Under the pieces are notes generated by a model. It made no database searches and had not been told where the DNA came from. It worked only from the letters and a program-made list of their open reading frames with translations. 64,000 bases of DNA from Dictyophora rubrovolvata (lineage: Eukaryota; Basidiomycota; Agaricomycetes; Phallales; Phallaceae). Where the stretch lies: positions 682,001 through 746,000 of the forward strand of contig CP114123.1 of NCBI GenBank assembly GCA_029959195.1. Direction: 5' to 3'. Position 1 is the first letter of the stretch. Each line of letters starts with the position of its first letter. This document shows, one piece after another, positions 1-39,875 of the stretch. The translations under genes and the position numbers were made by a program.

Positions 1-1
1 G

Positions 2-2585: not shown

Positions 2586-2718
2586 GAGATAGAGAGGATA
2601 GACGATATAACGGGTTATGAATTGGCCTGGGTGCTGTGGACTTGTAAAGTCCTTAAATACGACTTGAGTCATGATTAAATCGTGTCAGTCATCATGCATT
2701 TGAGCTCCTGGGCGCCGA

Positions 2719-2773
2719 TCAGTGATCTGGGTTTGTGGCTCCAGAGCACCTTAGCACAAACCCAGATCACTGA
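2719..2773. repeat. Perfect 19-bp inverted repeat (foldback)
   Basis: Left arm tcagtgatctgggtttgtg at 2719-2737 and its exact complement at 2755-2773, with a 17-nt loop. It lies just upstream of DUF6533 copy A. It could be a miniature foldback element, a structured 5' leader or a protein-binding palindrome; nothing else decides. Confidence 0.85.
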
Positions 2774-2785
2774 TATGATTGTGTC

Positions 2786-16829: not shown

Positions 16830-18031
16830 CTAATTCTTTCTAGAAGGATAGACAATACCATCGGATTCAGATCCACCCTCATAAAACTCCTTTGCAAACT
16901 CTTCCAGGCTGAAGGGTTCGAAGCTACCGGGATACAAAACGCGAGCATCTAGGTATCCTAATTTATTCGTTACCCCTACCGTGTTTTCTCCATCCACGAA
17001 CATAATGTGATGAGCGACATGCATGGTTTCCATACCGAGCGTCACACGGGATGGAGCGAGTTCATAGTTCTTCTGGGCTTCTTCAAGTCTGTTGAAATAT
17101 TCCTCTGCAGTGATCTGCCAGTGAATACAATTAGCAAAAATTAAGTCACACAAACCGTGAACGTCGTCGTCGTCGGACTTACGAAAACCCTGTTAGCACG
17201 CATATTCCCTCCCTCCTTTGAAACCTTTTCAGCAACATCATAAATATCATTCAAAGAAACTTCATCTCCACAACCAAACACCTGCTGATTGAGCGTTCGG
17301 GGATCGTCGAGCACAAGTGTGACTAAGCGACCTATATCAATGCGAGAAGTGACGGCAGTCTTGACGTTTCCAGTCCCGATAAACCAGTACGAGCGTTCGG
17401 CTAAGTATCCTTGGTCTGAAGATGGGTATGGAAGGATGAGATCCATCCACCAGCCGACGTTGATGTATGTGTAAGGAAGGTTGAGCTGTTTTACGAGTGT
17501 GCGTATCTCAATTTGCTATTAAGGTGTGTTTCAGCTCCAAAAGTCATTGTCAACGGGGTAGGCAGCCTACATTATTCAAAACCGAACTTCTTCTTGAAAT
17601 ATCACCAAATAAATGAACAATCGCAAACTCCGAAGGAACGGCGCGTTTGATACTCTTACACCTCGAAGCCGCGACAAGAATCTTCTTTTGCTTATCAATA
17701 ATAAGACTCGAGACCATGATAACGAGTATTTCTATCCCTTTCAGAATTCGGTTTTCGAATTCTTCTACGCTGTCTTCGATTATATCTCCCAACCGGATTT
17801 CAGCTCCTTTTTGTTTAAGCTTCAAAATTCGAGGTTTGTTTTGTGATTCTGGACGACATAGCAGAATCACATTCTAATAAATAATGAACGCTTATCTCTA
17901 GTAGTACCTGCTCAGTAACAAAAACGTACAAATTTTTCAGATTCGAGCAGAGCAGTTGAAACCGGAAACCCAGTATTGCCACCACCTCCCACCACGAGGA
18001 GAGTGGGTTTAGATTCGAACAAAGAAGACAT
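16830..18031 (-). CDS. NmrA-like / isoflavone-reductase-type NAD(P)-binding protein
   Basis: The start ATG at 18031 gives MSSLFESKPTLLVVGGGGNTG, the glycine-rich Rossmann motif near the N-terminus. The second exon (about 17600-17870) has VILLCRPESQNKPRI, GAEIRLGDI and KRAVPSEF, a conserved block in isoflavone-reductase relatives. Later exons include GWWMDLILPYP, RIDIGRLVTLVLDDP and a C-terminal EEFAKEFYEGGSESD ending at 16830. At least four exons separated by short introns are needed. Members act as NAD(P)H-dependent reductases or as redox sensors of the NmrA type; which applies here is not visible. An in-frame ATG at 18139 exists, but it would prepend sequence that does not look conserved. 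Confidence 0.78.
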
Positions 18032-18922
18032 CAGAGATGAATTGATGACAGATGACCTGGTGAGTTCTATTTTCTTACAATCCCTTTCCTTAAATATCGT
18101 GCCAGTTCCACTACCACCATCTTCAACGTCAAGAGACAAAAAAGGCTTGCCGTCGACGCGTCACCGCGTCACCGACCGTCGATGTGATATGTGCCTACTT
18201 GAGAAACCGTCGAATTACACTGATCAATAAATCTATCAATTTTGAATTTTTCAGGCCAGGTTTGTTCGCTTTAGTCCTTTTTTGGATGTCACAATCTGTC
18301 ACAATCCACAACCAGTTTCCTTTTTAACTTTTTTTCGGCGACGGGGCAAATGTCTTCAGAGCCTTACATATTTTCAGTCAGAACGCTGGGAAATCCGAAG
18401 AATACGGGTTTCAAATCCGCTTGAGGTGATGTCATATTTCACGGTTTTGACACATCAAGTTTCGGTCATAGGTAATTACAACATCAGGGAAAAAAGCTCG
18501 TTCTACGTCGGGCTATGTAGCCTACATAGCGCTTGTATCATCTTCATTTCATATGTGCTCTTCAAGCAATGCTCTTTAAGATGGATGGCAAACACTTATA
18601 CGGACAAGGAGTATCAGATACGCCGATAGTCGGGATGCCTGTGCATCGTATTCACATCTGTGCACAAAGGCATTATGCGGTGCTTCAGCTTTATATTGCC
18701 AAAGAATTGCGATGAATACTGGGCAATTACATATAAATGTGTCCTGGGGCCGAAGACATCGTGAATTCCGCCCACCACTCACGTAGCCTGAGTACGAATG
18801 CTATTCAGTGATATGCTGCGTAGTGCGAACACATCGCTCGCATCAAAGTTTATTTTCCATTGAGATCAGGACTGTTCAGTCACTGTACAAAAATTACGCA
18901 CAGAAATATTTTAGTTCTGATT
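18032..18922. other. Spacer with a diverged repeat
   Basis: Carries the promoter side of the NmrA-like gene and the second copy of the flanking repeat (18538-18625). No gene recognised. Confidence 0.5.
18538..18625 (+). repeat. Diverged direct repeat, right copy (flanks NmrA-like gene)
   Basis: Partner of 16119-16205, same orientation, with a roughly 10-nt insertion after the GTGCTCTT block relative to the left copy. Confidence 0.55.
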
Positions 18923-20638
18923 TTAGTTCTGATCAGGCAGGATGCCATTCACTGGGACTGGCATATTGAATCCGACATTGTCGTGATCGCCACTTTCTAT
19001 ATCTGTCACCGTCACGTCTATATCTTCAAGACTGGCCAATTCCACACGTATAGATTGATGAACACGCTGAAGTACGTTTGAGAATTGAAGTGTTGGTAAG
19101 GATGTGATATTGGCCTCGATTTTATGAGAATTAACGTGGCGTAGATCTAGTGTAAAATCGGCTACAAGAATGCTTGACAAACTTACGGCGGAAATGAGGT
19201 TAGCGGACGCCAATCGAGATGTATGAACTCTTACGCATTTTGGAAAAAAGTGAAACTTTGTATTATCAGAGAGGCTGAAGACTGAATCAAGTTGGATGAT
19301 CTCAGCGGTGTGATTGAAACAAATAAAAAGGGAGCGATTACACTTTGAACGGGAACCTAAAGGGGAGATAATGGTTTGCATTCATAAACCAATTCAGATC
19401 TTATCTTTAATACTTACTACTGGTACGATTAAAGTTGTGACGGAAATAAAAACGACGAAGCTTATCAATAAAAGCTCATGAATGGTATAGTGATGGCCCA
19501 GAAATTGATTACATACCAAAATCTCGTTATACCTAAACGTTTCCTGTTAAAGTCTTTCTATTTAGGAGCCACGAGTACGTACCCTGAGTAATGAGTATGG
19601 AGACAAGATTATGACCACTGCTTTGAATCCCGACTTCATGTTTTAATCTCCATGTACCCCAAACCTTCCACATGATGACAAAAAATATGAGAACGTCTGT
19701 GTAAATTACGATAATATTATTGGCAAGTGTGGTTTTGACGTCTTCAGCTAACACATTAATTTCAAAAAATGAGCTCGGCGTTCGAAACTGAACATGAATT
19801 TTGAAGCATACTGGAGAGACTAAAGTTTGAAAACTCTGTGAATTCATAATAAGGCAAAGGTGTGAGTCACTAACGTTGTAAGGCATCCAGGGAATGCTAT
19901 TATTCCTACACAAAAGTGAGATATTTCGAGTTATTATTCGAAACTTTCTTTACCATATAACTCCAAAATTAAGCCGGGAAAAAGACCAAAGGCTAAAGCT
20001 GTGGTAATAATTTTACCTCCTTGACACATTGCGTATGCTCGAGCAACCAACAAGCCTGAGATGACGGTTTAATGTGCTTTAAAAAACTCAACAACGTAGA
20101 ACACGCACCTTGAACACCAGCATACGACAGAAGAGCCATGGAGTTTGATGCATTGGTAAGTATATTACAAGGTCTGTATGTCTCTTTGATTCTTGCGAAC
20201 GTAATTTATTAATAAGAACTTTTACCTTCCGAGCTTCAATGTCATTAGAGAAATGCGTAGTATATATGTAGTATCCCTGACTTACAGGAATGAAGTTTAG
20301 TGCAAAATCAAGTGCTTGCTGAATAATACTCCCATATCTTGTGAAAATGTATAACAATGTAGGCAGACTGAACGACTTATTCCATATATGCTCTATTTCT
20401 TGTGGGAACTTCAGCAGAGCGGCATATGAAAGAAGTGCTGCACGCGTTTCATAATGAATTTTTGTTCTTTGGGGATTTGGATTGCTCACCTAGACAAATA
20501 ATAGAGATCAAGTTGTCGATATAGCTAATATTCATTGAGTTTATTATCAAATATGAAAACAAATACATACACTTCGTAAGCCTCCTGGATAACGGCGTTT
20601 ATGATTCCAGCGGTTGTGTTGTTAATTGTACTGTTCAT
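18923..20638 (-). CDS. DUF6533-type multi-pass membrane protein, copy B
   Basis: The start at 20638 is followed by MNSTINNTTAGIINAV and an intron. Exon 2 reads VSNPNPQRTKIHYETRAALL and the signature EIEHIWNKSFSLPTLLYIF (about 20350-20420). Later membrane segments include the motif WKVWGTWRLKHE near 19630-19690. The last exon contains ADFTLDLRHVNSHKIEAN and a tail ending NGILPDQN at 18923. It is one of the two best-preserved copies; I saw no disrupted frame but did not verify every splice site. Function of the family is unknown. The N-terminus has Asn-rich putative glycosylation sites (NNTT), consistent with an outside-facing N-terminus. Confidence 0.7.
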
Positions 20639-22050
20639 ATTATCGAGGGCGGCGATCTACGATAATGAGGTGAATTTAAAATGTCAAAACGTACTGGCCC
20701 TTTGATATAGGAGCCACAATCATTGAACGACTGGAATAGTCATGCATTGAGGCCGGATCCGAAGCGCAACACCACAACTAGTCGCAATCAAGGAACAGAA
20801 TCAACTTGAGCGGTGTTGTTAATGAGAAGCTGATCCTGACATGACAACGACGACGTTGATATGAATTTCTTTATAAGGGAAGTACGTAGAACTTATGATG
20901 GTAAGTGATCCCAGTAACCAAAATACGACGTCAACTCTGGCCTACTCTGGCGTGCCGACTCAAGCTCGGAGTATAATTTCGTTTTCTCTCCGAAAATTTG
21001 ATGCTAATGGTAACGAGATCAGCCGGACTTAGGTGCTGATAGACTGTTAGGCGCAGTTAGCGAGTTTATCTCATATGAACCGGATCCATCAGTTCTGTAA
21101 ATGAGAATTTGATAGGGTTATATCGGATTGATAGATCAAAATGATTGAATTTGTAGCATTAAGTAGACTCTGTCGGCGGGCGAGGGTTTGTGGCATGTGT
21201 CAATGACGAAAGCCCTGCCAAGGGACGGGACATTGCGAAGTTTTTTGCAAGCAGCGTATTGTACTGTCTGTTAGATTCAAAGTCAAATCATGACCAGGGA
21301 GCTATAAAAGACGAATCATATTGACTCAAAAGCACAAGAAGGATTGAATAAAATACGTCAGACGGATGTTAACGTCCGCGAATCAGCAGACCTGACGCAG
21401 AAAGAGCGATAATCAGGATACTTTGCGCTAACTTTGAGAGCACCACACTACCATTTTGATCTCATAGCAACCGTTTCCTGATTTCGAAATTTAATCAAGG
21501 TAATATCTATGTTTCCCTTGATGAGCATATTCCTTGAATCGTATGCGTGGTCTAGTAACTCATGAGGATGGTGATATTGACAGAACGTCTGGTGTTTTGG
21601 ACACGTACGGACTTTTGTTCACTTTGCCATCACCACATATTGGTTTAGTCGGTCACTGAAAGCCTTCTCGCTGACATATTCGTAATTAGCAGGGTTATAT
21701 CGGCTGTTTAAAAGAGATGATCACTTACACGACTGGTCAACCGATATGACCACTTGATGTCGATTGATTTAAAATCGCATAATTCGTTTGTCCACTATTC
21801 GCTGACTCGGAGTACCTGCCATTACACAAAAAACGACTCTGATCAACAGCGATCCATCTTCTTTCCGAAGCTGTTTAGCTACTTAAAGTATTCTTGAGAT
21901 TGGATATGATCACTATATGCGTTGCCGTAGCAGAGCAAAAACTCCCGCCATCAAGTCTGATGGAGAGTGGCTATCGCACCATCAAGAGAAGTTAATTCGA
22001 CCCCTCTGATATGCATGCCAGTGTGAAGACCTGGTCTGACCTTCAATATC
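20639..22050. other. AT-rich spacer upstream of the large transposon
   Basis: No open frame of note on either strand for about 1.4 kb and no repeat family that I recognise. It contains the promoter of DUF6533 copy B. Confidence 0.5.
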
Positions 22051-22093
22051 GTGTCGCAAAAATCGAAATAGGTTTATTTATCATTATAAACCT
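22051..22093 (+). repeat. Left terminal inverted repeat with subterminal motifs
   Basis: GTGTCGCAAAAA at 22051-22062, then AGGTTTA at 22070-22076 facing TAAACCT at 22087-22093. Confidence 0.7.
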
Positions 22094-23421
22094 AAAAAAG
22101 CTTGTCAGGCGCCGAGGCAATTTATTAACCGTAAATTTTTAACTCAAGGCACCAACAAACCTAAGGACGGAATTATTAACTAAAAACTTGGATAATTTTG
22201 GGACGAGGTCAATTTTTAAGTCATTTACTGCAACTCAAGGTTAAATATCGGCCGGTTTAGTTTTTGAACACTCGCTCAAGATAATTAGTATAACGAGTAG
22301 ATTATTTTATGTTGCTTTGGTTATTATACGACACAATGTGTTAATAAACTTCAGTATGTTCAGACAAGGATTATAAAGTCAACGTTTTGTTATTAGATTC
22401 TAAATCGCCGCTTATCTATCTACTTTATAAACATTTGTGGATTACATAATCACATCCAGCTATCAAAACTTCAACGACTAGAACTATAAAAGCGATGTGC
22501 AGTGGACCTGAGTGAGCGATGAAAATCCAAGTACCCTGTGAAATTAATTGGATTTATAGATCGAGTGAGTTAAATGCATACCTAATCGAATAATATTACG
22601 TGCGACGTGATAGTCTAGCAAGGAGTCTACTTGAAAGACATTAATTTTCACCACAGCCCCAATGAGACGGCAAATTACTTACCTTACCTCCTGAAAATGA
22701 AGCCTGAAAATCTGATAAAATTTCGTTAGTATAATTGTGAATTGATAAACATGCACAGGACACATTACCGGGAGGGAAGAGCTTGAGGCATGAGGATCAC
22801 ATTCTTGTTTTCAAAATAATCGAGCGATGCCTGTGTTTGATCTAGCTTGTGACATAAGCTTGCAAAAAGAGATGTACGGTGCTACACACAGAAACATCTC
22901 CAATGAGCGACGTTGCTCATCAAAAAGAGCCGGTCCGCTAATCAAGTCCAAGTCAAGTATCATGGACTGACACACCCAATTTAAATGCGGAAACCTAGCA
23001 AAAATAAATTAAACTGAAAGGTTCCAGCCTGGGAGATGAAATGGCACACTTCTTTTTGAAGTCTTTGATCTTGGGGTTATTCGTTTGGAAAGATTGCTGC
23101 AATAGAAATGAGATGCGTAGGAGACTTTCTGATAGTAGAAAAGTGTTAACATACATTAAAATTGCATATTGGAACACTCCAATATCTATCCATTCTAATA
23201 AAAATTGTCGAGGAATGCTATATAAAATGTATAAATGACTTACTGGGATTGTTCACTGCTGAATCTCATAACGGTGATGGTATGATAGTAGCAGGAGAAA
23301 GGAGAAAAGCGGAGCGTGAAAAAAAAAACTTCAGCCGCTAGAAAGGAACTTGTGATCGGGCGTCTATTCTGAACCGTGCTTGAGCCAAATAAACCAAAAT
23401 TCAAAGCTCAACATTCGTATC
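22094..23421. other. Non-coding left part of the transposon
   Basis: About 1.3 kb of very AT-rich DNA with no protein-like frame. It probably holds subterminal binding sites and the promoter of the small accessory gene. Confidence 0.45.
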
Positions 23422-24074
23422 ATGCCACATTTGACACCTGTTTTCCATCCCCGTTCTCCGGGAAATACTATCATTCCTGAGACGGAATCTCAAGTCTCAG
23501 TTCAGGACAGTGTATCCGATCATTCCGCCATTTTCCCGACTTCTGAATCAAATTGGGGCTTGGATGAAGGTGGAGTTGGTCGACAGAGAATGATATCTGA
23601 AATCTGTTTAGATCGTATCGGTATGTCTAGCAGCTGATAAATGGATTATCCACTCAAAATATATATAACAGGTGCTACACCTGAAAGACTGACAAAAGTC
23701 TCGAACCGTTTGCAACAACTTGAAAATAATGGTGGATTTCAGCATGGTACCAGAGAGGAAAGCAATGTACATGCCATGGTACACCAATTGTCAACACTGA
23801 TTAACGTTTGCTTAACTGAGTTTTATTATAGGATATCCCTCCCAGTACCGAATCAAATATCAGACGCGAAGCAGAAGAAAAACAAGACAACCCAACGCTC
23901 ATTGCATTGGAACTCATAAAAGAGTTGAGACACACTGTAAAGGACTTGCGAGCGATGTATGAGATAATGCAGAATAATTATGAAGATCAGAAAAAGGAGG
24001 AAGTGATGCGACTAACAATGTATAATGATATCTTACATAGTTTTACTAGTCGCGATTGCTGTGAACTTTGCTAG
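23422..24074 (+). CDS. Small coiled-coil protein carried by the transposon
   Basis: Three exons (23422-23620, 23672-23766, 23832-24074) join in frame to give 178 residues and a TAG stop. The protein begins MPHLTPVFHPRSPGNTI, is polar in its first half and then forms a long charged helix, likely a coiled coil (LIALELIKELRHTVKDL). It ends with a Cys-rich tip, DCCELC. I recognise no family. Its place between the left end and the second accessory gene suggests an accessory function in transposition, but this is inference. The final C-x-x-C is not a CaaX prenylation box of the pheromone kind. Confidence 0.6.
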
Positions 24075-24190
24075 TCGACTGGACGTATAATCAAATTGTC
24101 ATTACGTTACGTTGTAATAGAATTTGGTCAAACATATATGTATCGAGGACAAGGAAGTCGGATCCTAAAAAATACTAAACTAATCCATGT

Positions 24191-26253
24191 TCATTTTTTT
24201 GCTTTAGCCTTCCCTTTTCGACCACCGTCTTTTCTAACGTCCCTAATAGCATCTTTCTCAGTCACTGGATTCGAATTAGTCCTTGATCTCAATCTGCGTG
24301 TGTAAGTTTCAGTGTCGGCTGTATCGTTGCCACGTTTTTGCCCACCATGGGCACGTGTAGTTTGTGGCATGCTTGGTTTATCTGCAGCAGGAATGCAGCC
24401 ATAAACGGTCATGGCTGAGGGTCTTGTGCTTGTGGATGGACTAGCTTGAGACATTATGGAAGCCTGAGATCCAGCCGAAATACGAGGTTCAGTGATGGGA
24501 ATACGAGATCCGGCAATGGGAATACGAGATCCAGCAATGGGAATACGAGATCCAGTGGCGGGAATACGAGATCCAGTAGACATACGAGATCCAGTAGGAG
24601 CAGCTGAGGGCACAGCAGGAGTTGAAGATGTTGTGGGAAATAAGGTGGAAGTTGGAGAAGCCGGGAGTTCAGAAGAAGCCGGGAGTTCAGGAGAAGCCGG
24701 GAGTTCAGGAGAAGCCAGAAGTTCAGAATGTTCAGGAGAGGCGGGGGCTTGTGGTGAAGCACTGGGGGCTGGAGGTGCAGTAGAGGATGTCACAGTGCTT
24801 TTGTTCTGAAAGTGTCTTTGGATGATTTGCTAAAGTAATGATCTGAATATATCTTACTCTAGATATTATATGAGGATGAGGCCTAGGTACATCCGTTTGG
24901 GGCTGATCATTCTCATTCTCATTCATTTCCCTCATTTCCCGGCTATTTTCATCATCTTCGTAATCCGAGCTCCGTTCTCCCATAGCTTTATCTATTTCTT
25001 CTTGATCTGAATTAATAGAGGAGTCATCGGCATTTTGATGTTGAGGATATAATAATCGATTGGCCCATTCAAGCGTACTTTCTAGCTGCAAATGCTTACT
25101 GCGTTTTGCACAAAGCTCCATGTAGGTATTAAAACACTTGTGATATGAAATGCCTGGCTCATAATCCGTTTTCGTGGCATTGAAATCATCCTCAGTAAGC
25201 GCGCATCGAAGCTAAGGGTTGCAAATCAACTTAGAATATAAGAACCCATAATAAATACTTGGAGCTTACAATCGTCACAACAATAGCTAGCATGGTAGGA
25301 GTAACCTCTTTCAGTCCCCACACAATCCCAATAGGTTTTCGACCACCATATTTGCCTCTCACTGTCTTGAAGTCTTTTAAACCACGTATTCCGTAATAAA
25401 GTAATAGATATGTCTGAGAGAAATCTTGTAAGTAACTGGCATTCTTCTTTTAATATAAGACTTACGCGAAGTATGACCATATTATGGAATAGTCTGGTAT
25501 GGCCATCGCCAGGATTTACTTTGAAGTCCTCATAAGCGATTGGTGCCAGCCAGTGAAAGCTTCCGGTCTTGCCTTCTTTTTTCGACCAACCATTTAGCTC
25601 AAGCCTCACCTCTTCCTTCTCAATTGCAAAACCTGAACCTTCAAATATCATATTCAACCCATTCCGTATATGATTGACGGCAGTTGCTCGTTGTTGATTC
25701 ATTCCTTTGATGAACTGTATATTATTAATAATTAGGAGTCATCAATGTTACACGAATAAATACCTTGGATTGAAATCTTACATCGCCAAAATGGCCATGT
25801 AATTCTTCTGGGACTAATTCTTTGAGATCACGCAACTGGCCTTGCATGATCATGTCATTACGATACCGTCTGCTAGGCCTGTACCCTGGATCTTCTTTGA
25901 CTGTGAAAGCAATTTTTTGATTATGAAGCCACAGTGATACAGTGAGAACATATTGTTTGCCAAGTGCATTATATCTATCACTGTCTTTTGTAGGGAGTTC
26001 TTCTTGCGGAGGCTGGGGCGTCTTTCTGCTCTTCTTCAAAAACTTTAGTTTTGCTTCCAAATCCAGAATTTCCTGCTCGCGTGCGATCATCTCTCTTGAT
26101 GACATAGCTATATCGGCCCTGAGATCACGATATGTCTAAAAAGGGTTAGTGTGGATAAATTTATATCTCAAATCTTACCGCAACTACTTCACTCAGCTCT
26201 GTCACATCATCATCATCATCACTGAGGAGTGCTGGAACAGTATATTGTGGCAT
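24191..26253 (-). CDS. Unknown transposon-borne protein with Ser/Pro repeats and basic tail
   Basis: Starts MPQYTVPALLSDDDDDVTEL at 26253. Introns near 26137-26178, 25725-25775, 25415-25470, 25215-25272 and 24795-24855 all have GT...AG ends and keep frame. The order is an acidic N-terminus, a coiled coil (REMIAREQEILDLEAKLKFL), and a folded middle with HWLAPIAYEDFKVNPGDG and LLLYYGIRGLKDFK. An acidic linker follows, then repeated ASPELP and GSRIPIA units and a Lys-rich end (GRKGKAKAKK) that could be a nuclear signal. Length is about 570 residues. I do not recognise the family; similar genes accompany mobile elements in mushrooms. It converges with the small gene at 23422-24074. Confidence 0.6.
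24497..24598 (-). repeat. 21-bp in-frame tandem repeat
   Basis: About four to five copies of a gggaatacgagatccagcaat-like unit inside the unknown transposon gene, encoding repeated GSRIPIA/GSRIPAT. Confidence 0.85.
24660..24720 (-). repeat. 18-bp in-frame tandem repeat
   Basis: About three copies of gccgggagttcaggagaa in the same gene, encoding ASPELP/ASSELP. Confidence 0.8.
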
Positions 26254-26457
26254 TTTTATGTTCAGTAAGTTCAGTAAATGAAATGAAGAAGTTGGAGGGA
26301 TAAGCAGTCTGGGCGTTGTCATGTCACACGTTACTCTTCAACTTTAAAGTATGAGGATACAAAGACACTTCAAAAGAGTAAAAACCCTCAAATGGCACAT
26401 TATAAGAGGGTCTCATTTAATTGGATATAACAAAAACATATTTATATACTATAACCA

Positions 26458-29400
26458 TCAATCACCGCTGCTTCTTCTAGAATTCATTGGTTCTGTATCT
26501 CCATTGTATGTGTTTAGATGATTGGAGGTATCGTTAGCAGACTGTTGTTGCCACAGTGGTATGGAAGGGTTTGACAATGACTGTGAAGTAGTGCGACACA
26601 TAAGCAGGCCCCGAAGCATCCCCCCTGCCGACGAGTGTGTATGAGATAGAACAGGAAGACTCCATTTGTTAACCTGCACAGACAATGACAAAGATTAATA
26701 CGACAACGCTATGAAAAGATAATGGCCAATCACGTACCCCGCCACTTCCGGCAGTTCCAGATCCTACGACAACGTTGAACGCTCCCAGCTTATCCTTTTT
26801 AGCATGAACACAGCGCCACTTGAACTCGGCTTCCCTTTGCATCTCTAAACCCATACCCGGAAGGACTTTGGTGACATGAGCAAAGACCATGGCAGGTGGA
26901 CCATTCGTTACAGTTCCTTGATCAATGGCACTATGATGAATTCACAACGTCGAAGCAATTAGGTGTTACAGGGGCTGGAGAAGCATTTGCAGAGGCGAAC
27001 AGTGAAGGAACTTGAGGGAATTGAGGGGAAGTAACAGTCCGCATGATCGACATTATATGGGATGCTGTGGAGGGAGCTGCGCTGGAGGTCTCTGACGGAG
27101 TATGGCACGAAGTTGTGGAAGCAGAGCTGATGGTTACGTTGGAAGGAGCAGGAGGATTGACAATGACCTGTCAGATTGAAAGAGCTAGACACAATAATAA
27201 AAGGAATGATAAGTGTCTTGACTTATGAAGTCTGAAGCACCTTCTGCCCGAGCATCACTGAGAATCTCAGGTTTCCTCCTCCCGAGACTTCGCAGTCTAA
27301 ACCAATTCATCACCCCTTTAGCCGAGAGAGTCGACACGCCAGTGTTGGTGGTGATGCCATTGAACAAGGCTCGAGGTAATGTAGGATTGTGGATACCACC
27401 CAGCAGTGGACTGAGCAGTGCCTCAGGAATATTATTGATGGGTATATCAGCCTTCACAGTACCGCCACTGGTCGGCATAGGAGTAAGAGTCAGAGTCGGT
27501 GGTCTTTTGCCGTTCTTCGCCTTCGCCTGCTCTTTCTGGTTCTCTTTCTGGTTCTCTTTCTCTTTATTGGAATGCGAAGTATCCCGAGATTTGTTAGTTT
27601 CGACGGTGACGGAGTGGTTCTTCCATTCTTTGATAGTCCTATATCAAAGCGCCATCAGCCTCAGAGATACTAAAAGAAAACACAAAAGTTACTTACTGAC
27701 TCAAAGGCTCAACCATCAAACTTAAGGTCTTTCGCCTATTCTTCGCCTTCTTATCATCTTTCTCCTGCTCAGATTCTCTATCCGTCTTCGTATCAGTCCC
27801 GTTGACTTTGAGATTTTCTTTCCTGCTTGGGACAAGAGCCGACGTGGAAGACGACATGTCATTATTCTTCACTCCATTGGGAACCATCTCTTCTCCGGGT
27901 ATGTCAGTAACACTACTGCTTGCTTTCTTTCCAACACCAAACCCAAACCTATCCACTGACAAACCTCGACGGAGTCTCTTGCCACCACTTCCTCCAGAGT
28001 TTGTTGATTCCGCATTGCCACCTTTACCAGCTTTGCGCGGCATAGTTTGAGGACTGGGCACTTGAGCAACATGTTCTCCAGGATGAACGGTCTGATCTGG
28101 ACTAGGTTGAGACAACGTGGGTTGCTGTTGCTGTTACTGTTGAGCATGTTACGAGGGAGGAGTAAATAGAGCCTCAAATGATGAAGGCATAGGATGTGCG
28201 GCTGTCAGCGTCTTTGGAGACTGTTGGGCAGACGTCTCGAAAGCTGTCTTATGCGCCTTAGGTGTGGCTGGTGAATCTTCAGCTTCAGCGACCGCTTGAG
28301 GAGCGATTGTAGTTGTCATGATGTCAGAAACAGCCTCTTGTGGACGCTGAGGCATAGGAACTTGAGGAGAGGCAGGGATGTCCTCTGCATACTCAAGTTG
28401 AAGAGTATGATGTTGATTGGTCTTCTTCCGCCAGCTACCAGTCTCTCTATCCTTGTCCAGAGTCTTGGCCCATTTTTCCTTAAACTTGGAGCGTTTCGAC
28501 CGTGTAGAGCTCCGGTCATGTTCAGCAGTAGATGTAGCAGGTGAAAGGGTATCATTTGCTGCTGCCGAGTCGACAAAAGATTCGGCTTCTGGATTAGAAC
28601 CCATTACGATGGCACTAGCAATGGCATGCCGTGGTGTAGGTGCATTTGTAGCAGATGAGTTGTAGTATTCCTTGGTCTGGGACTGTTGCTGTGAGGCGGT
28701 GGTGTGTATTTGGCGTTGATAAGCCTGCTGCTTCATAGTCTGTTGCTCCAATGTGATGCGTTCCAATTCAGCAGTGCTTTGTTCGAATAAGTGCTTGTAC
28801 GCTTCGAGCCATCGATGCTGTCCAAACTGGCACGGTGTTTGGGATCCGGGATGAGCATTTGGGATAGCAAATCGCGAGCGTCAGTGGAGATATAATCCGG
28901 GAAGGTAAGAGGGGTATTGATGATATACTTATAGAGGAGATTGATGTTGTCACCTTCCGGATTGGCTGGGTCATCGTCAAAGGGTAAATACCCAGCCAGT
29001 ATGGCGTAGAGGATAACGCTGCAAGACCAAATGTCGACTGTGGAGCCAACATAGAGCCCTTCGGAAATGACCAATTCCGGAGCCGCATAACATGGAGAAC
29101 CGCATGATGTTTGCATGTCTGCATGATGTTCAAAGCGATTGGCGAATCCAAAATCAGTGATGATAACATTTCGGGAGCGGTCGAGTAATAAATTTTCGAG
29201 TTTGAGATCGTGATGAACAATTTTCTTGGAATGGATATACGAGACACCACTAATGAGCTGCGCAAATAGCTTGCAAGCGTCTTTTTCTTTCAAGAAGTGA
29301 TGCGCAAGGATGTGGTCGAAGAGTTCGCCTCCAGAGGCATATTCAAGGATGATACCGATGTACTTGTCTGTCTCGATTACATCATATAATCGTACAATAT

Positions 29401-29800
29401 TTGGATGTTTAAGAAGCTAAAAAAAAAAGTATTATTACAAATGAGCAAATAATAACAAAGAAAACAAACTTTACCCTAAGGACCTCAATCTCTCATTCAA
29501 CTTTCGACAATCGCAGATGGTTATCAACATTGCCTCGTCTTATCAACTTGACAGCAACTTCTTCGCCCCATTTAGAGTGAAGACCCAGCTTCACTTTTCC
29601 AAATTCACCCTTGCCCAAGTTTGCAAGAGGAGATAGGGGCCGAACTTGGGTATCGTCCGTCATGGATGTGCAGCCGCAAATGTCACAGCTGCAGGATGGG
29701 AGTAAACGTCCCAATAAGTACCACTGCTCTCTTTTCCTTGCTCTCATTCTCGTTCGTCCCTTTGTGGGGAGGATACCCAAGTGGACGGAAAAGCGGAACA
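26458..29800 (-). pseudogene. KIN4-like CAMKL protein kinase copy, broken, inside the transposon
   Basis: Kinase landmarks are clear: GKGEFGKVKLGL, EEVAVKLIRRGN, IVHHDLKLENLLLD (HHD for HRD), ITDFGFANRF and CGSPCYAAPELVISEGLYVG. The linker ends KNRRKTLSLMVEPLS, a hallmark of fungal KIN4-type kinases, and part of a KA1-like domain follows (AHVTKVLPGMGLEMQREAEF). Breaks: a frame change just before the glycine loop (about 29620-29640); a TGA where SKVEREIEVLR is expected (about 29490), as from a CGA-to-TGA change; and lost bases with a frame change at the end of the kinase domain (about 28815). The KA1 domain seems to lack its last third. KIN4 kinases guard the spindle-position checkpoint in yeast. 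It lies head to head with the transposase gene, about 100 bp apart. Confidence 0.8.
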
Positions 29801-29900
29801 GTGAAGTTTACTTACTGTCACGTGTCACGTGAAGTCAACTGAGCTCACTGCTCTGCTTTCAGGCATGAAAACACAGTATAATCGATAACGTCGATCCCTC

Positions 29901-32900
29901 ATGCACAGCAGTCGTAAAGTATTAGGACACCAGCGATTTTGCCAATACTGCAACAAAGTAAAGAAATACCATCGCTTCGATAAACATCAAGAGGCATGCA
30001 GAATCAAACACTTGCGCAACAATGTGCTTCGGACACCGACCCTGGGTCTGAACGATCGTACGGGTACATTTGGTCTATCTCAATATTCTCAAACTAAATT
30101 ATTCCATATAGAGCGATATCCAGGCTCACATTTACAAGTATCCGAGGGTGTAGGTGTCGATCGGAACACGTGGTCTGTTGGTATGGTAGATGACGTTTAT
30201 ATGCATGGTAAGCAGCGTTATCATCCATGCTTATGCAAAATTTTACCAAGTAATTTCTGGATCAAATATTAGATCAAATATTAGATGACGAATCAGCTTC
30301 TACTCCCCCTGTAACACCATCAAGTTCAGATGAATATATTGAGATTATACATCATCCGCATAGCAAACTACACGAGCCTACAATCATCCCACTAGACACA
30401 GAACAGTTTCCCAAAACAAATTCCGACAAACCATCAGTTTCTCAGCACACTCCTGATCCTGAACGGCCATGGGCCCCTTTCCGCACACGCGCAGACTTCG
30501 AGTTTGCCGAAATCGTAGTGACTGGCTGTTTAAAGAAGGATATAACAGACAGGATTCTCAATGGTATTCACGGCGGATGGGCAAAGAACTCCTCATTAAC
30601 ATTCCGAACACATCAAGATGTTCAAGACTCTCTTACCTCAGCCCGAAAATTTATCCAGCAAGTATGAATTGATTTCCTCGTCTGATCGTTGCCGTATGTC
30701 TGATCTATTTGAAGTTTACCGAAGCTGAGGTTTCGCATACCTTTCAAGGAAAAACTCAAACTTTCAAGTTCCTATATCGAGATCCGTGGCAGTGGATCAT
30801 GAATTTAGTCCAGGATCCAACTCTGTCCGAAGATATTTCATGGTTTCCGGTGAAGAAGTTCCTACATGTTGGCGAGGAAGTCACGCGAATATATGATGAA
30901 CTTAATTCAGGCGATGCGTGGTGGGAATATCAGGTATTTACAATTTTGTTGAGAATCATATCATATTGCTTTAACATTATAATTTAGGATTCTATTAATC
31001 CCGACTCAGAGCATCCACACTGTTATTTCCCGCTGCATATATGGCTTGATAAGAGCAATGTGTCCACTAATAAAAAAATGCATCCAATTATCTTACGCGC
31101 ATGTGCACTTCCAAGCCAAATACGGAATGCATCGGGAAATGGAGGGGGCATATTAATTGGTTACATGCCCATCGTAATTTTCTTTCAACATCGATTATTA
31201 TTTTTACTAATTAGATTATATGGTTTAGGTTGGCGATCCAGCTGATTCCCCTCATAATGAAGATGACTCGCTCTCGTCTATTGAATTGGCACAGTACAAA
31301 CGTGAAGTCTATCATAAAATTCTTAGCATAATTCTCCGGTCTCTCAAAAACCGATCGATCTTTGGCGAAGCAATTATGTGTGGTGATGGGACGATCCGTA
31401 TTATTTTTCCCGGCCTTTTGATCGCTTCTCTCGACTTAGAAGAGGCTTATTCCTTCTGTGGAACACGAGGCTGTCGTGCGAACTATCCTTGTCCACGTTG
31501 CCTCGTTCCACAACAAGAACTACATTCCATAATCACCGCGTATCAAGAACGTACTGATACAAGCATGGCCGAGATCTTCACGAAAGCAAAATCGCTGCAG
31601 CAAAAGCCTGCTGAACTTTTATTGAAAAATAATGGGCTTCATTTGATACCAGTAAGATCGTGACTATTCTATTGAAGGATAATTAACTCTCTTTAGAATT
31701 GTTTTTGGAAATTGTGTAGATCCTGTCCTTATCATGCATATTCATATGATATTTTACATTCTTTTGACTCGGGCGAATGGGGGAAACACCAATGGCCCCT
31801 GCTGTTGAAAGTCTTGAACGCTAGTGAACAAGCACAACTATCTCGAAAGTGAGTTTCATTATTACTTTGGTATATTATCATCTAACTCAACGTCGAGCAT
31901 AGCATGGCACAAGTACCACCTTGGGCCAGATTAAAACATTTTGATCATGTCACTAAAATAGATTATACTGACGGAAACTCTTTTCGTGACATTTTAAAGG
32001 TATACATGGTTCAACACAATTTTTGCATGATATTCAAATGAATCATTATTCCAGTGTATTATTCCATGTCTCGCTCCAATTCTTCAAGCGCAATCTCCCA
32101 TTTTTCAAGCAATTCGTTGGTGTGGCATATTTCGTGCGGTTCTCAGTCTCAAAGTTATATCTGAACGTAATATTTTATATCTGGAACAAATTGTTATACC
32201 CGAATATCACAAGCTTTGCACCGTGAGTCTGAATTAATTCTAATATTCTAGACGAATTAACAATGTAAAGGATATCACGGAATTACATGGAAAGTCATAT
32301 AGCTATCCTAAACACCATATGATGCGTCATGCTTTAGCCGATTTGCGTCGGAAAGGATGTATTGACGGCTATTCAACCCGTCCTGGTGAAGGTTTCCAGC
32401 AAGAAGTGAAGCAGGCATATCGCCAAACAAACTTCAAAAGTGTTGAAGCTCAGGTAAAATATCTCATCTATACTGTTCAAAGATTAACCAAATAACTTCT
32501 ATGGTTAGATGACCAGAATCGATGAAAATCAGGAGGCGATAGCCCAAATACGAATGTTTGTCGATCAATTCGAAAAGGAGCGCAACTCCGCGGATGACGA
32601 AAACCCCGTTGATGAAGACACAGCGCGGGAGAAGCATGAAATCGAAAATCATTATAGCTTAGGCTCCCCTTCTGCCACCATGAAATTATCCGAGGTAGAA
32701 CAAAATAATTCACCAGATTCCAACTTCTCTCACTTTGCATCAAATCTTCTGGAGTTTATGAATGAGATCCCAGATGAACAGAGGCCGTCGATAAATCATA
32801 ATACTACTGTGAGTGCCGCGTATATCTGTTTCTGTATGAACATGATCAATTCTTGTTTTCAGATTCAACCTTTCAAATGTCTCTACATTACCTTTCGGTC

Positions 32901-33293
32901 AATGGAAGACTGGCGACCATCAAAGGACATCCTCCGTTGCAATACTGAATTCCATGGACACCCACGCTTTGATTTTGTCGCAATAAACACAAACCCAATT
33001 TCATTTGCTCAGCTTTTATTCATTTTTACCTGCAAAGATTCGAAGGACCAACAATGTGACCTTGCACTCGTGAAAATGCTTGTACCATCAGTCTTGAAGT
33101 CAGTTTGGTGGGAAGGAATGCAAGCTTTTGAAGAACAAGACGTTCAGTTCATTTGTCTCGAATACGTCATTCGAGGCTGTCACTTCATTCCCTTTTTTTC
33201 TCCAAGCAAAAAGAAAGTCTATTTTCTAAATGATGTGGTTGATAATGACACTTTTGTACGTTTTTTCCTAGATTCGCAGGAGTTATATCAATA
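29901..33293 (+). CDS. Plavaka-type transposase (apparently intact)
   Basis: Eleven exons keep one frame: 29901-30207, 30273-30661, 30715-30933, 30988-31173, 31229-31651, 31697-31848, 31913-31999, 32055-32222, about 32271-32453, 32509-32808, 32873-33293. The N-terminus has a zinc-finger-like CQYCNKVKKYH with HQEAC. Then come PWAPFRTRADFEFAEIV, YRDPWQWIMNLVQDP, a core with WLDKSNVSTNKK, GYMPIV and CRANYPCPRCL, and a late block HHMMRHALADLRRKG, EGFQQEVKQAYRQTNFKS typical of Plavaka proteins. The acceptor of exon 9 could also be 32252, but 32271 keeps frame. Plavaka enzymes cut and paste elements with inverted ends. No stop or frameshift was found, which is unusual beside a decayed cargo gene. 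Confidence 0.8.
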
Positions 33294-33615
33294 AAGATCC
33301 ATATTTTTATTCGTCATTTTGAATTCTATGCATTTCTTTATATTTTCCCACCGAGGTGAATCACTAATGAACCGCTCGTCTTTCCCAGTTTCCACCGCTC
33401 GTTAAAATCCTTCTTCCGCTTTCTCCTTCTCTTCCCCTTCCTTTTCTCTCATTTCTTCTCCAGTTCATATCGGTACTGATCGCAAGTCGTCGTCTCACAG
33501 CATCCGCTCGCATCAAGCCTCCGGCTAAGTTACCAATTCAATCTCTATCCGCAATATTTAAATCAAAGTATATTGCGGAGAAGAGTAATTAAATCAATAT
33601 AACTTACCGATCAAG
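33294..33615. other. Transposon 3' untranslated region
   Basis: Pyrimidine-rich stretch (tccttcttccgctttctcc at about 33408-33426) followed by AT-rich DNA up to the right end. No gene. Confidence 0.5.
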
Positions 33616-33675
33616 GTTTATAAAGCGTTTATAAACCTCAAAAGGATTATAAACCTGTTAAGGTTTTTGCGACAC
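33616..33675 (-). repeat. Right terminal inverted repeat with subterminal motifs
   Basis: TTTTTGCGACAC at 33664-33675 is the complement of the left end. Upstream are AAGGTTTATAA and two TATAAACCT motifs between 33613 and 33656. Confidence 0.7.
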
Positions 33676-34689
33676 GTGGATGATGACTGGTCGCTTGATA
33701 CCATGAAGAAATTACCTTGGCCGTCTGGGAATGTGAATACCCTTTTGGAAGGGCTGAACAGCAATCAACTCCACCTTGTGAACAGATTTACAGATACCGT
33801 CTTTGTGAGAAAAAGAAAAGGTTGTAAGAAGCCCACCATCGTTTGATGAAAGGAATGGAAGTTGTTATGGGATTTGCGTTCTATAGGTATGTGCTTCGTG
33901 AAAGCCACCGTTGATCATCTAGAATTGATGGCCACTGTCCGAATGGAGTACTACAGGATCGTCGAAAAGTGCATCCAGCGCCATTGAGTCAGGGAGGCCT
34001 GAAGCTTCGGTACGGTTTTCTATTCATCCGTAGATCTCTGCGTTGAAGACTGTGTGAATGTTACAGTTAACGCTAGCTTTAAAAGGGATAAGAAAAACGA
34101 AAAATGGAAGAGAGAAGGTGGAAAAAAGCTCACCCGGAGCACAAAAGATCATCATCTCCCTAGCAATTCTACACCATGCGGTCAAGGACGATTGCCACGC
34201 CTGTGAATCCTACAAGATTAATTCCTGATTCTAGGTTCACCAGAATTAAGTGTTAGTCAACGCAGCCTTGGTGTTCGCATTCGCATACTATAATTTACTT
34301 CCTTTGTATCTTAATAACCCAAAACGAGCAGCGCACAGCCCGAGCCTAGCTGAAGATCACGATTTTCTTCACGAAACAAGGGGAAATGTGGTTCATAGGC
34401 TCTGGTTATTTGCACATCCAACTGAAAGGCTCGACTCCAAAGATTTTAAGATTTTGAATCTTGAAAAAAAAGCAAACGACATTGGCATGAGAGGATTAGA
34501 GAAGTCAAAGCAAACCGTGGCCATGCTATGCGATGATGGACGAACGAGGTGTCGGTGGCGTGGTTTTCCGCGGGGTTTGAAATCCTAGTTTTATAATAAA
34601 TTCAAACTTGTCTACTTTGAGAACCCGAGACCTTTCAAAGATGAATGAAAGTGACCCTTTTTTTTCATAGGTGAACTGAAGCATACATT
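33676..34689. other. Spacer right of the transposon
   Basis: An open frame at 34250-34588 (112 codons) has no recognisable pattern or splice partners. Nothing else seen. Confidence 0.4.
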
Positions 34690-34937
34690 GTCTGCAAGCA
34701 CTGTTTCAGCTACTCAAGTCTGGCACTTACTCCACCTTCGACTGCCTGTTTTTGTCGCCACCAAAAGCTGATTACTACTAATGTCATTTATACAATCCAT
34801 TTGACAGTTCCAGACACTTATTATTACTCGATTTTATTAGCTTTCAGTATTTAAACTCTCCAAAATCAGATCTCGACGTTTCACCTATAAAGCATCCAGG
34901 TTCCGAGCAAACTGTATTTCACCATCAAGAAAAATCA

Positions 34938-35493
34938 ATATTAAACATGAATGGAGATATCTCACGTGTTTTGGAAGTTTGTCGCATTGAAGAGCATGTT
35001 GCAGGGTCTTTGGGTCGTTTTTATTCCTGCCAATAATTCATGACTAAGGATCTTACCTTCCTATCTTTGCGCATTTGACATATTATTGAGAGATCGTGGT
35101 TGTCATGAACTCATGTGCTACTCACTGGGACGAAAATTACTGAGAAGCTAAGTCCCTGCCCAATCAAGGTCCCATATTTCGCGAAAATGTACAAGAGTGA
35201 AGGTAAAGTGAGCGGCTTGCACCATATATATTCCATCTCTTGCGAGAGCTTCAACAGAATAGCGTAGAAAAGAAGCACTAAGAGTTTTTGTTCTATCATG
35301 AAGCCTTTATCACGAAATTTAGATTGCTCACCTATGGAACTGAGAAGGGCTAGGCCACAAGCGTATCTAATAGCCCATGGTTTAGAAATTTAAATAAGTG
35401 CTAATGGAAAACAATAAACACATACACTTCATAAGTTTCCTGAACGATGGCATCTACGGCTGCAGCAGTGATATTATTATTTGCACTGTTCAT
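34938..35493 (-). pseudogene. DUF6533-type protein, copy C, with large internal deletions
   Basis: The start is at 35493 (MNSANNNITAAAVDAIV). Exon 2 is well kept: EQSKFRDKGFMIEQKLLVLL and the signature EMEYIWCKPLTLPSLLYIF (about 35180-35250). A piece of exon 3 follows (GTTGCAGG complement, about 34980-35020). Compared with copy E, two stretches are missing: about 0.9 kb covering the middle membrane exons (E 42400-43290) and about 0.2 kb covering the C-terminal exon (E 42128-42350). Flanking DNA is joined directly across both gaps. The remnant cannot encode the full membrane protein. Confidence 0.75.
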
Positions 35494-35691
35494 CGAATAG
35501 ACAACCGGGGAATTTTATAAAGGAGTGAAAGGGTGAAACTTTCGGTTTCGACTGCCAGTTTTCTTGTAGATAGGCAAAGGCCAAATGCTTAGGTCCTTAT
35601 AAATATACTCTTCGAGTTATCATTAAATAAAATGATCTATACTCCCATTCGTCGAAGATAAGGTGCTAGGAACGCGACTTGAGAAAAGTTC

Positions 35692-35902
35692 AAAGCATGC
35701 GATATCAGATCAAAAGAACTAGTTGCCCGGAGTGTTAAGTCGAAGTCGCAAAACGTTCGAGGACAACATGTACATGTACCTTGCGAGGCTGAACGGGGAT
35801 TCTTAAAGCATGCGATATCAGGAACTAGTGGCGTCGTGCGTTGAGCTGAGGTCGCAAAACATGTGACGACAATAAGTATATTGCGGGGATGAACGGAGTT
35901 CT
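35692..35902 (+). repeat. Tandem repeat, two units of about 120 bp
   Basis: AAAGCATGCGATATCAG, AACTAGT, GTCGCAAAAC and GAACGG.G.TTCT recur in order at 35692 and 35815. The paralogous region near copy E (about 43970-44105) has only one unit, so the tandem copy arose after the segmental duplication or was lost there. Confidence 0.7.
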
Positions 35903-36500
35903 ATCGTTCATTCATCAATCTTCGATACCAACTAATGCCAACGATGAGTTTATTGAGAACTCGAGCTTCGGGACTTCGGGTGCTGATCATGATGCACAAC
36001 GGCCATGCTGTCATAGGTCGTATGCTCCAGAAGATCTACAGCACTTACGAACTTATCAATATCATTCATTTGACCTTCATAGCTCTGAGGTGCTCGATGT
36101 CGTTGCAGCATTGAACAAATCTCCATTAACCGCCATCCTACAGCATCCCATGTCCTCAACGACAGGTTTTATGACCTGCGTTTGCAGCAACGGGTGTTTA
36201 TTGAAGACCCAGTAAACATTAAGTTGGATGAAGTTTAAGTGTTGAATATTGTCGAATAATGTTGGAGAACGAGAGTGTACTTTGCGAGAAATATATATGG
36301 TGAGAATTTCGTCGGTGCCGAGGGTCGATGCTTAGGCCAGCTGTGGAAGCGCTCGCCGTCGTCGACGGCGGCGGACGATACGAAAAAAAATCGGTGAAAG
36401 AATGCTCCCAAACCTTTCCTTCGCAATGACACATTGTGTCAAAGTTCTTTACCCTTCAAAGGAAAACAAAGTCGGGCTCAGTTACGTTGTTAACAATGCC

Positions 36501-37931
36501 AAAAAGAGCAGATCAATCCGAAGTTTAGAAACCCTTCATCAGGAAAAAAAGACATGGCTAAAAGTGGCTATATGGTCCGATATAGGCCGTGTAGCCGTAT
36601 TGCCATGTCCCCTGTTTTATTGGCCGCTGTAGTGCACCATAGCCAGACTCGGACTACATTGTTATATAGAAAGCAACACGATGCTACCAAAAAATGCCAA
36701 ACATTTCTATATAGACCTACGTAGTACTATGACAGGATTTATGAACTTGTTGCTTACACTTAGGTCTATTGGTTATGGATGCCTCAGGTAATGCACACAT
36801 GGATGGTTTGATTACAATAATGTCTGAATCATTTATTAAAGAAAGTAATTACAACAGAACTATTGTTTTCATGATATGTATATATATCGTTTTTACTATC
36901 ATCATCACTATCACTATCACCTTCACTTCCATCTTATCCCTCTTGGCTTCCATCCTCCATTGCATTGTTAACTTACGTGATAGAGAGCGAGAAAGGAAAG
37001 GTTAGTGTCAATGATAAGGATGGTAAAAGAGGTGGACATACGAATATCTGCCACCTTCATTATCTCCGTTGTTAGTCAATAAGCTATGGAACAATGAGGA
37101 CAGCAACAAGTTTAGAAAAGCTAAAAAGTCTATGTATGTGAAACTGACTGACTTGGGTAATAACTCGGATTCGACATTTCTTGGCGTTAGGAGAGGAGAA
37201 AAGGGGAGGGATGAATGAGGGCAGTTCTAAGGAGTTTGTGCAGTAAAATGACAAAATCTTCTGTTATATAAATTTTGACGGAATGAATCACCTGACTTGT
37301 TCAAACGTTTTTACACGTTCGTCATTCCTGAATAATACCGGCCTTGTGTCTCCGGGACTTATATGTAGGGAACTTGAAAGTTTCGCAGGGCAAAGAGAAG
37401 GGTTGGAGAAGCAAAAGTTCATGCATTGAATAGCACAAATACAGTCAGTCGAGGTAGTAATCAGGAGGCTAAAACGTGACTCAAAAAAAAAAATATTAGA
37501 CCGGTAGCTCCCGGTAGCTCCTGTAGCCACAAAGCATCACATAGTTTTACTTTAGATATGGAGGAATTATGGACAACAATGTAGCGGCGACGTGGACACA
37601 ACATAGCTATGAACTGCTATAGAGTGTACATAGCACCGTCACGTTACATAGCACAAGCGCGCGCATCATAAACGCTGACGGTTATATCGCGTTACTGCAA
37701 GACTTGAATTTTCCTGATGTTATATCGGAGCGGGATCGTGACGTGGATCAACAGGACTGATATATGACTCTGCGTAAGAACTTGACCGTGACTGTAAGCA
37801 CTTTTTTGTAGTACGGAACAATTCTTCGCCTCTACGAGACGACTGTTGTGCAGTTATTGTAAATAATTCTGACGTGATTCTGAATTTCTCGATTCTCAGT
37901 CATAGGTTGCAGAAGGAATATTGACGTAGTC
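36501..37931. other. Insertion-like stretch interrupting duplication copy 1
   Basis: About 1.2 kb (roughly 36520-37735) without counterpart in copy 2. It contains a CATCACTATCACTATCAC simple stretch (36900-36930), repeated GGTAGCTCC near 37503-37520 and several CATAGC motifs near both borders. It could be a small inserted element, but I could not define clean inverted ends. No gene supported. Confidence 0.4.
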
Positions 37932-38091: not shown

Positions 38092-39875
38092 TCACTCTTC
38101 ACGAGAAGAAATTGAGTGTTCGTATGGAGCAGTTCGAACGATGTCCATGTCATTAGCTTCCATGGATCCAGGACCATTGTGATCATAGTTGTCGCCCCCT
38201 AAGTAGGCAATGTCTATGTCTTCGGGAGTGGCGAGCTCTGTAATAAAGGATTGATGCACATGTTGAAGAATATTTGAGAAATGGAGTGTTGGCAAGGATG
38301 CGTTGCTAGCCTCGATTTTAGCAGAGTTTAGTCGGCGAAGATCTAACGTAAAATTCGCCACCAGAATGGCCGACAAACTAAAAAACGGAAATTATAATTA
38401 TAAGTGATGAGAATCAAAGTGAAATATTTATAATGTGGGCCTTACGCATTTTGGAAATCAATGAAGCCTACCAGCACAGCAAAGAAGGAGAGTGAGGACT
38501 AATTAAGTCAAGTTAATGTCAGCAATTGACACAAGAAAAATGTGATTACATCCGGAAGTTCAATCTTGAAAGAGACATAGCAGTTTGAAAGAACAAATTC
38601 TCATTATTACTTCCAACTTACCATCGACATCACTAGACCTGCGATAGTAATAATAATAACAAAGCTTGAAAACATTTGAATCAACTCTAAAATCTGATAT
38701 GGAAATTGAGTGCTTACCAACATCTTGAAACACCTGATATCCACATGTTTAAACCCCATCCAGACCCAAGCAATTGACCCGAACTTACTTTGCTGAAGTA
38801 GAACAGACACAAGACTAAAGCCACTTGAGATCCCTGGCCCAATTTTCTGTTTCAATCTCCATGTGCCCCAAACCTTCCATATGCAAATACTGAACAGCAG
38901 AACGTCGATGAAAATGACAGTGAAATTGTAACCGAGTCTGATAAATATGTCTTTGACTGACAGGATACTTGTAAATGAGTCTAAGATCAGAATTAGACAC
39001 GAAGCATACCAGGGGAACTGGAAGGTACCAGTGTTTTAGCATTGGTATTTGTTGATGCACGAGCGATGAATCACCGACCTTGTTAAACATCCAGGAAATG
39101 CGATTATACCTGAATTAAGAGTGAAAACAAAGTCTAGCTAATATAATTCAAAAGTTGGCTTACTATACAAATTTAAAATAAAGCAAGAAAGCAAGCTAAA
39201 CGCTAGAGCTGCGGTGATGATTTTATTCCCTTGGCATATTGAATATGCTCTAACAATGAGTAGACCTAGGATAACTATTAGATACACTCTTCAACTTTCA
39301 TCGCTCAAGAGCATACCTTGAGTGCCGATAGAGGACAAAGTTGATAGGACATTGGACATATCGGCAAGCACGTTACAAGTGCTTTATTTATTTATTCTTT
39401 AGTTTTCTGTCAATTTTTATAATTAGGAAATCTCACGTTCCAGTCTTTGGTTTATAATAATTATGAGGGCTTGTAATCACGAACTTGAAGATGTATGCTT
39501 AACTCACTCCTGCAGTGGTGGTTATTGCAAAGCTAAGACCTTGCTGAATTAAGCTCCCATATCTTGTGAAAAAGTAGAACAACGTAGGCAGGCTGAATTT
39601 ATTGCACCATATATACTCAATTTCTTGAGACAACTTTAAAGAAGCTGTGTAGAAAAGGAGTGCTGGGTTTTTTGTTCTATCAATCTTCTAACCCCAATCA
39701 ATTCAAATTGCTCACCCAAAGCGCTGACGGAGAGGTAGGCGAAGACATGTCTAGCATCTCATCAGTGATCACACGCCTGACTTGGTATACAAAGAATAAA
39801 GACATACGCGACATAATCTTCGTGAATAATAGTGTTCATGTCTGCAACGGTTATGTTATTGCTTGTGGTATTCAT
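38092..39875 (-). pseudogene. DUF6533-type membrane protein, copy D (probably frameshifted)
   Basis: The start at 39875 gives MNTTSNNITVADMNTII. The signature EIEYIWCNKFSLPTLFYFF with TRYGSLIQQG lies at about 39545-39640. Membrane exons follow, and the last exon contains ANFTLDLRRLNSAKIEAS and an acidic end SSREE at about 38092. In exon 2, near 39650-39670, the run after IEQK is one base shorter than in copy C. That puts the EQFELIGVRRLIEQK frame out of step with the signature. A poly-A/poly-C run there could also hide a sequencing error. Otherwise all exons are present, so the break looks recent. Confidence 0.6.

Follow-up and report, generated by a model that had tools for sequence, protein, structure and literature searches.

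A well-delimited PlavakaA-type transposon with a decayed kinase gene copy in Dictyophora rubrovolvata

Genes and features of the locus

The sequence examined here is a window of 64,000 nucleotides from Dictyophora rubrovolvata (assembly GCA_029959195.1, contig CP114123.1, positions 682,001 to 746,000, forward strand), and all coordinates below count from its first letter. Its short GT-AG introns, its Plavaka and DUF6698 proteins and its DUF6533 genes point to a fungus, probably a basidiomycete of the mushroom-forming group. Within this window an element of 11,623 bp has DUF6533 genes on both sides, matched by Pfam at 20091-20489 (5.9e-10) and at 35114-35389 (8.8e-09). Its ends, its repeats, its gene content, the open frames of three of its genes and the lesions of its kinase are direct observations. 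The features are, from left to right:

22050..22051, no strand: putative 2-bp target-site duplication CG, left copy (2 bp expected for PlavakaA, PMC12730594, available part)
22052..22077, forward strand: left terminal inverted repeat, starting with TGT
22070..22093, no strand: left subterminal facing motifs AGGTTTA ... TAAACCT (at 22070 and 22087)
23422..24074, forward strand: gene 3, 178 aa
24191..26253, reverse strand: gene 2, DUF6698 (PF20414), 602 aa
26458..29663, reverse strand: SNF1/MARK-like protein kinase pseudogene
29901..33294, forward strand: Plavaka transposase, 951 aa
33614..33656, no strand: right subterminal motifs (AGGTTTA at 33614, TAAACCT at 33632 and 33650)
33649..33674, reverse strand: right terminal inverted repeat, ending with ACA
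33675..33676, no strand: putative 2-bp target-site duplication CG, right copy

Some observations concern the rest of the window. Dispersed related sequences occur at about 910-2595, 18900-20640, 34925-36036, 38212-39875, 42169-44381 and 56082-57875, and two of these match DUF6533. The copy near 35 kb looks truncated, with most of the gene body apparently gone; its positions 34925-34976 match 42348-42400, after which 34977-35769 match 43289-44053. There is also a tandem duplicate (6046-8174 and 9381-11488, 77.8% identity over 2,150 aligned bases), the first copy of which matches flavin-binding monooxygenases. Two open frames with kinase domains lie in opposite orientation at 12371-13666 and 13988-15571, the second also matching DUF7580, and a perfect 20-nt inverted repeat with a 17-nt loop is found at 2718-2774.

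Terminal repeats and borders

PlavakaA families are described, in the available part of the source, as having TGT..ACA termini and 2-bp target duplications, while PlavakaB families have CATCA..TGATG termini and duplications of 2 or 3 bp (PMC12730594). An earlier note on this DNA had delimited the element by a 12-bp exact inverted end, and the published PlavakaA end rule shifts each of its borders by one base, to 22052 and 33674, which leaves CG outside both borders. The inverted end itself is real and extends further than was noted. The pair 22050-22077 and 33649-33676 matches at 24 of 28 bases, with the first 13 exact. Trimmed of CG, the two terminal repeats match at 22 of 26 bases, with the first 11 exact.

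How much weight can such a match bear? Exact 13-mer inverted pairs at a spacing of 3-20 kb are common in the window, which holds 34 of them (24 distinct repeats), whereas 40 shuffles averaged 18.3 and reached at most 30; a match of 12-13 bp therefore means little by itself. These counts are what favours the view that the ends match by chance and that an undelimited Plavaka remnant lies beside host genes, a view that we consider highly improbable. The longer match tells against it: just one pair in the window reaches 24/28, and none does in 40 shuffles. This same pair is the best 28-mer pair flanking the transposase (scanned from 18000 to 29890 on the left and from 33295 to 37500 on the right), and it exceeds the maxima of 60 out of 60 shuffles, which were 20 (n=10), 21 (n=37) and 22 (n=13). 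The termini also obey the PlavakaA rule as it stands in the available part of PMC12730594, and both ends carry clusters of the AGGTTTA/TAAACCT motif. The facing motifs that the earlier note had pointed out are thus upheld: the motif occurs 16 times in the window (8.85 expected from shuffles), and five of these 16 fall in the terminal 80+80 bp, where the density of the window predicts 0.04. In 200 shuffles the highest count in any 80-bp window was 1 in 189 cases, 2 in ten and 3 in one.

The end sequence TGTCGCAAAAAYC is found without mismatch only at the two ends of the element. With at most two mismatches it has six matches (3.74 expected): the ends themselves, two sites in the transposase gene and two beyond the element. 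Between 22065 and 31339 there is no further end-like sequence at this level (at most two mismatches), so none of that kind bounds a smaller, transposase-only unit. On the right, the outer end is 380 bp beyond the stop codon of the transposase; on the left, 1.37 kb separate the end from gene 3.

The CG on both sides fits a target duplication. A match of two bases has a chance of 1 in 16, and this one can be read equally as two further bases of the inverted repeat; because CG is its own reverse complement the evidence is weak, and the assignment rests on the published PlavakaA rule. Outside the CG the left flank ends ...CTTCAATAT and the right flank starts TGGATGATG..., and neither flank (20640-22049 on the left, 33677-34924 on the right) has a match elsewhere in the window of at least 40 bases at E 1e-4 or better. 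When the flanks are joined with one CG, the longest open frame over the junction has 64 codons, eight of them on the left side. This is unremarkable, as a frame at least that long is found at 76% of 500 uninterrupted sites beyond the element, and in a Pfam scan the 64-residue stretch gave a sub-threshold match only (E 0.1). The joined flanks give no support to an empty site and are unusual neither way.

The transposase and two probable accessory genes

The transposase, spliced manually from 11 exons with GT-AG introns, is readable throughout. It matches PF18759 at 5.4e-48 and 164.3 bits (cut-off 26.3) over profile positions 20-321 of 325, i.e. 302 of the 325. The spliced protein contains CPRC at residue 455 and HHMMRH at residue 662; assigned by eye, these appear to correspond to the motifs C(2)C and H(3-4)H in the list given for Plavaka (PMC12730594, available part). 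A match to SBP at the N-terminus was below the Pfam threshold and was set aside. Two collections were searched, both non-fungal, so that their results carry no weight here: one pattern-matching stretch in viral_contigs (for the transposase) and 18 in genome_contigs (for the transposase part) were found, none confirmed as a relative, and in viral_contigs there were 0 matches to the end pattern of the element and no relative of the part of gene 2 that was used.

Gene 2 was likewise spliced by hand, into six exons (26179-26253, 25764-26135, 25466-25714, 25270-25413, 24858-25211 and 24191-24805) separated by GT-AG introns of 43-58 nt, and it is readable. A first model with a last intron of 28 nt was dropped, as this is too short; a 52-nt intron takes its place. 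The Pfam match to DUF6698 (E 2.4e-11) was computed on an earlier model of 610 aa, and a sub-threshold match to DUF3134 was set aside. The protein has a basic C-terminal tail, and the last exon contains 18-nt and 21-nt tandem repeats at 24479-24743. The name DUF6698 is absent from the literature searched. Gene 3 (manual splice, exons 23422-23620, 23672-23766 and 23832-24074) is readable throughout, and in the Pfam scan it matched no family, giving only a chance-level match to Skp1 (E 2.2). The earlier note had described the element as enclosing a transposase, two unknown genes and a copy of a host kinase. All of these are indeed enclosed, with the correction that gene 2, one of the two unknowns, has a DUF6698 match. 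The product of gene 2 and the small protein of gene 3 are probably the element's own accessory proteins, with roles that we infer.

A decayed and probably captured kinase

The fourth gene, which starts at a methionine, is placed among the SNF1/MARK-like protein kinases by PF00069 and by its MARK relatives. The piece at 28736-29416 matches PF00069 at 5.5e-55; the N-lobe piece reaches 23.8 bits against the same family, below the cut-off of 31.7, and the piece at 26735-26941 has no family match in the Pfam scan. The closest solved relatives are MARK2 and MARK3, among the best 60 of 547 matches. The kinase may be Kin4-like; the comparison made here supports SNF1/MARK-like only.

This copy cannot be read through. 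An in-frame stop stands at 29493-29495 and the frame changes between 28834 and 28805 (near 28820), and these two are the only certain lesions. A further two in-frame stops (28149-28151 and 28134-28136) possibly fall inside a 51-nt intron, as judged by eye. The catalytic loop (within 29186-29215) reads HHD where the MARK relatives have HRD. The earlier note had counted the kinase as cargo; it is instead a pseudogene, passive captured DNA rather than working cargo. Its host origin is probable, and since it retains a 58-nt GT-AG intron (29417-29474) and starts at a methionine it probably arrived as DNA, not as a retrocopy.

The other genes provide a yardstick for this decay. Between them the transposase, gene 2 and gene 3 keep 1,731 codons open over 20 exons in the manual models. 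If about 900-1,000 kinase codons hold 2-4 lesions that break the frame, these 1,731 should on a rough estimate hold about 4-8; none is seen, for which the same rough estimate gives a probability between about 3% and 0.05%. Probably, therefore, the kinase was under no selection during a time when the other three genes were kept, or it was already dead at capture. The sequence of events that we favour is that the kinase was probably captured first and then decayed while the other genes stayed open.

Base composition is of limited help here. The ratio of observed to expected CpG is 0.73 in the kinase, 0.67 in gene 2 and 0.99 in the transposase. Over 24190-29663 it is 0.70, lower than in any of 167 overlapping windows of equal length taken from beyond the element (minimum 0.82, mean 0.98); the shorter external stretch 1-4000 has 0.73. 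Because gene 2 is equally poor in CpG yet readable, and because of the value for 1-4000, the CpG content is compatible with methylation-linked decay without being a sign of it. The simple RIP indices point neither way: (CA+TG)/(AC+GT) is 1.33 in the element and 1.18-1.20 in the flanks, and TA/AT is 0.69 in the element, not raised over the 0.73-0.78 of the flanks.

The same unequal CpG values could be expected if host DNA happened to lie between two Plavaka-family ends of separate origin, or between fragments of the ends of two copies, and if the kinase were a host gene that had decayed where it always stood. The kinase keeps its intron, and it stands head-to-head with the transposase, their start codons 237 bp apart, as adjoining host genes might. 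Such a composite should have left leftover ends behind, but inside the element no end-like sequence (at most two mismatches) is found outside the transposase gene. The agreement of the outer ends with each other at 24 of 28 bases, and their distances from the transposase stop and from gene 3, are further points against it, and we judge this origin very unlikely.

The kinase block might also be nested within the Plavaka element through an insertion of its own, e.g. by way of another transposon, and not have been captured by Plavaka itself. The difference in CpG content between the block and the transposase speaks for this, as does a 20-nt inverted pair (80%) at 26275-26294 and 29555-29574. That pair, however, is one among 128 in a 14-kb stretch, of which the 25 longest were listed, and its right arm falls inside the kinase gene, stopping about 90 bp away from the start codon (29663), so that the pair does not bracket the kinase. 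In addition, Pfam scans of the pieces and of the spliced proteins name no transposase except that of Plavaka. A nested insertion is in our view unlikely.

A probable PlavakaA element with a passenger

We are therefore left, with considerable confidence, with a complete PlavakaA transposon of the cut-and-paste DNA type at 22052-33674, which would be mobile and which holds a captured and since decayed host kinase. The earlier proposal of an 11.6-kb Plavaka-type element with matching ends agrees with the PF18759 match, with ends that surpass the shuffles and with the terminal rule of PlavakaA. The end rule, the transposase domain and the motifs, on which the placement in PlavakaA is based, appear to fit that lineage.

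Under this explanation the DDE-type Plavaka transposase would recognize the 26-bp inverted ends, probably aided by the subterminal TATAAACCT-type repeats. It would cut the element out and insert it elsewhere with a 2-bp target duplication. As a guess, the accessory proteins may act in the way the second protein of CACTA elements does; those elements carry subterminal repeats too. Much of a host kinase gene would have been captured at the DNA level, between the accessory genes and the transposase, and the copy would later have lost its reading frame.

A more far-reaching reading can be drawn from the same locus. PlavakaA might be a three-protein system, consisting of a transposase, a DUF6698 protein and a small third protein that act on clustered subterminal repeats. 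It might at the same time be a vehicle that copies large parts of host regulatory genes, here a SNF1/MARK-like kinase, which then travel and decay, and transcripts of the dead copy could interfere with the host kinase. We offer this as speculation and think it rather doubtful.

What the locus offers is a PlavakaA-type element with clear borders, in which the transposase is open, a DUF6698 gene stands as its partner, and much of a host gene has apparently been captured. A further question becomes testable: are DUF6698 proteins transposon accessory proteins?

Comparison with known systems

The closest agreement is with PlavakaA. As far as the available part of PMC12730594 describes these families, the element shares with them a PF18759 transposase and TGT..ACA termini, together with what by eye appear to be the motifs C(2)C and H(3-4)H; the CG on either side may be their 2-bp duplication. 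It differs in carrying a captured kinase pseudogene and perhaps also in its DUF6698 gene. PlavakaB is distinguished by its CATCA..TGATG termini, while the ends here are TGTCGC..GCGACA. TET-bearing Plavaka elements all belong to PlavakaB in the available part of that source (PMC12730594), and no TET/JBP gene was seen in the element.

EnSpm/CACTA elements, as portrayed in the available part of PMC8978399, offer several parallels: subterminal direct and inverted repeats, a transposase with a second protein of unknown function, and captured fragments of host genes. The termini of that group are CAC..GTG and not TGT..ACA, and in place of a 3-bp duplication the triplets flanking our element differ (TCG and CGT). 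Moreover, the part of a gene captured here is much larger. Zisupton (KDZ) elements have an 8-bp duplication, whereas the flanking octamers CAATATCG and CGTGGATG differ from each other and the transposase is of PF18759; an earlier placement of Plavaka with KDZ has been corrected, according to the available part of PMC12730594.

Another parallel is the histone-H3-capturing hAT element of Pseudocercospora fijiensis, which is also a fungal cut-and-paste element with an inactivated captured host gene. That element has a hAT transposase and hundreds of RIP-inactivated copies in the available part of the source (PMC6710886), in contrast to the one copy seen here. In gene-capturing transposons (Pack-type or transduplication) the captured gene has its parent elsewhere in the genome of the host, and the point of comparison is the intron-bearing kinase copy between the ends.

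The earlier note had expected that an example with both ends would define the full Plavaka element. In this it comes late: Plavaka families with termini and target duplications have already been reconstructed (PMC12730594, available part), and inverted-repeat motifs of KDZ/Plavaka elements were characterized in the genome paper of Marasmius oreades (PMC8290104, available part). The capture of gene fragments by plant CACTA elements has likewise been published (PMC8978399, available part). In the part of the Plavaka literature that was covered we found no report of a kinase. The element is thus no new class, and is a well-preserved further example of Plavaka with one unusual passenger.
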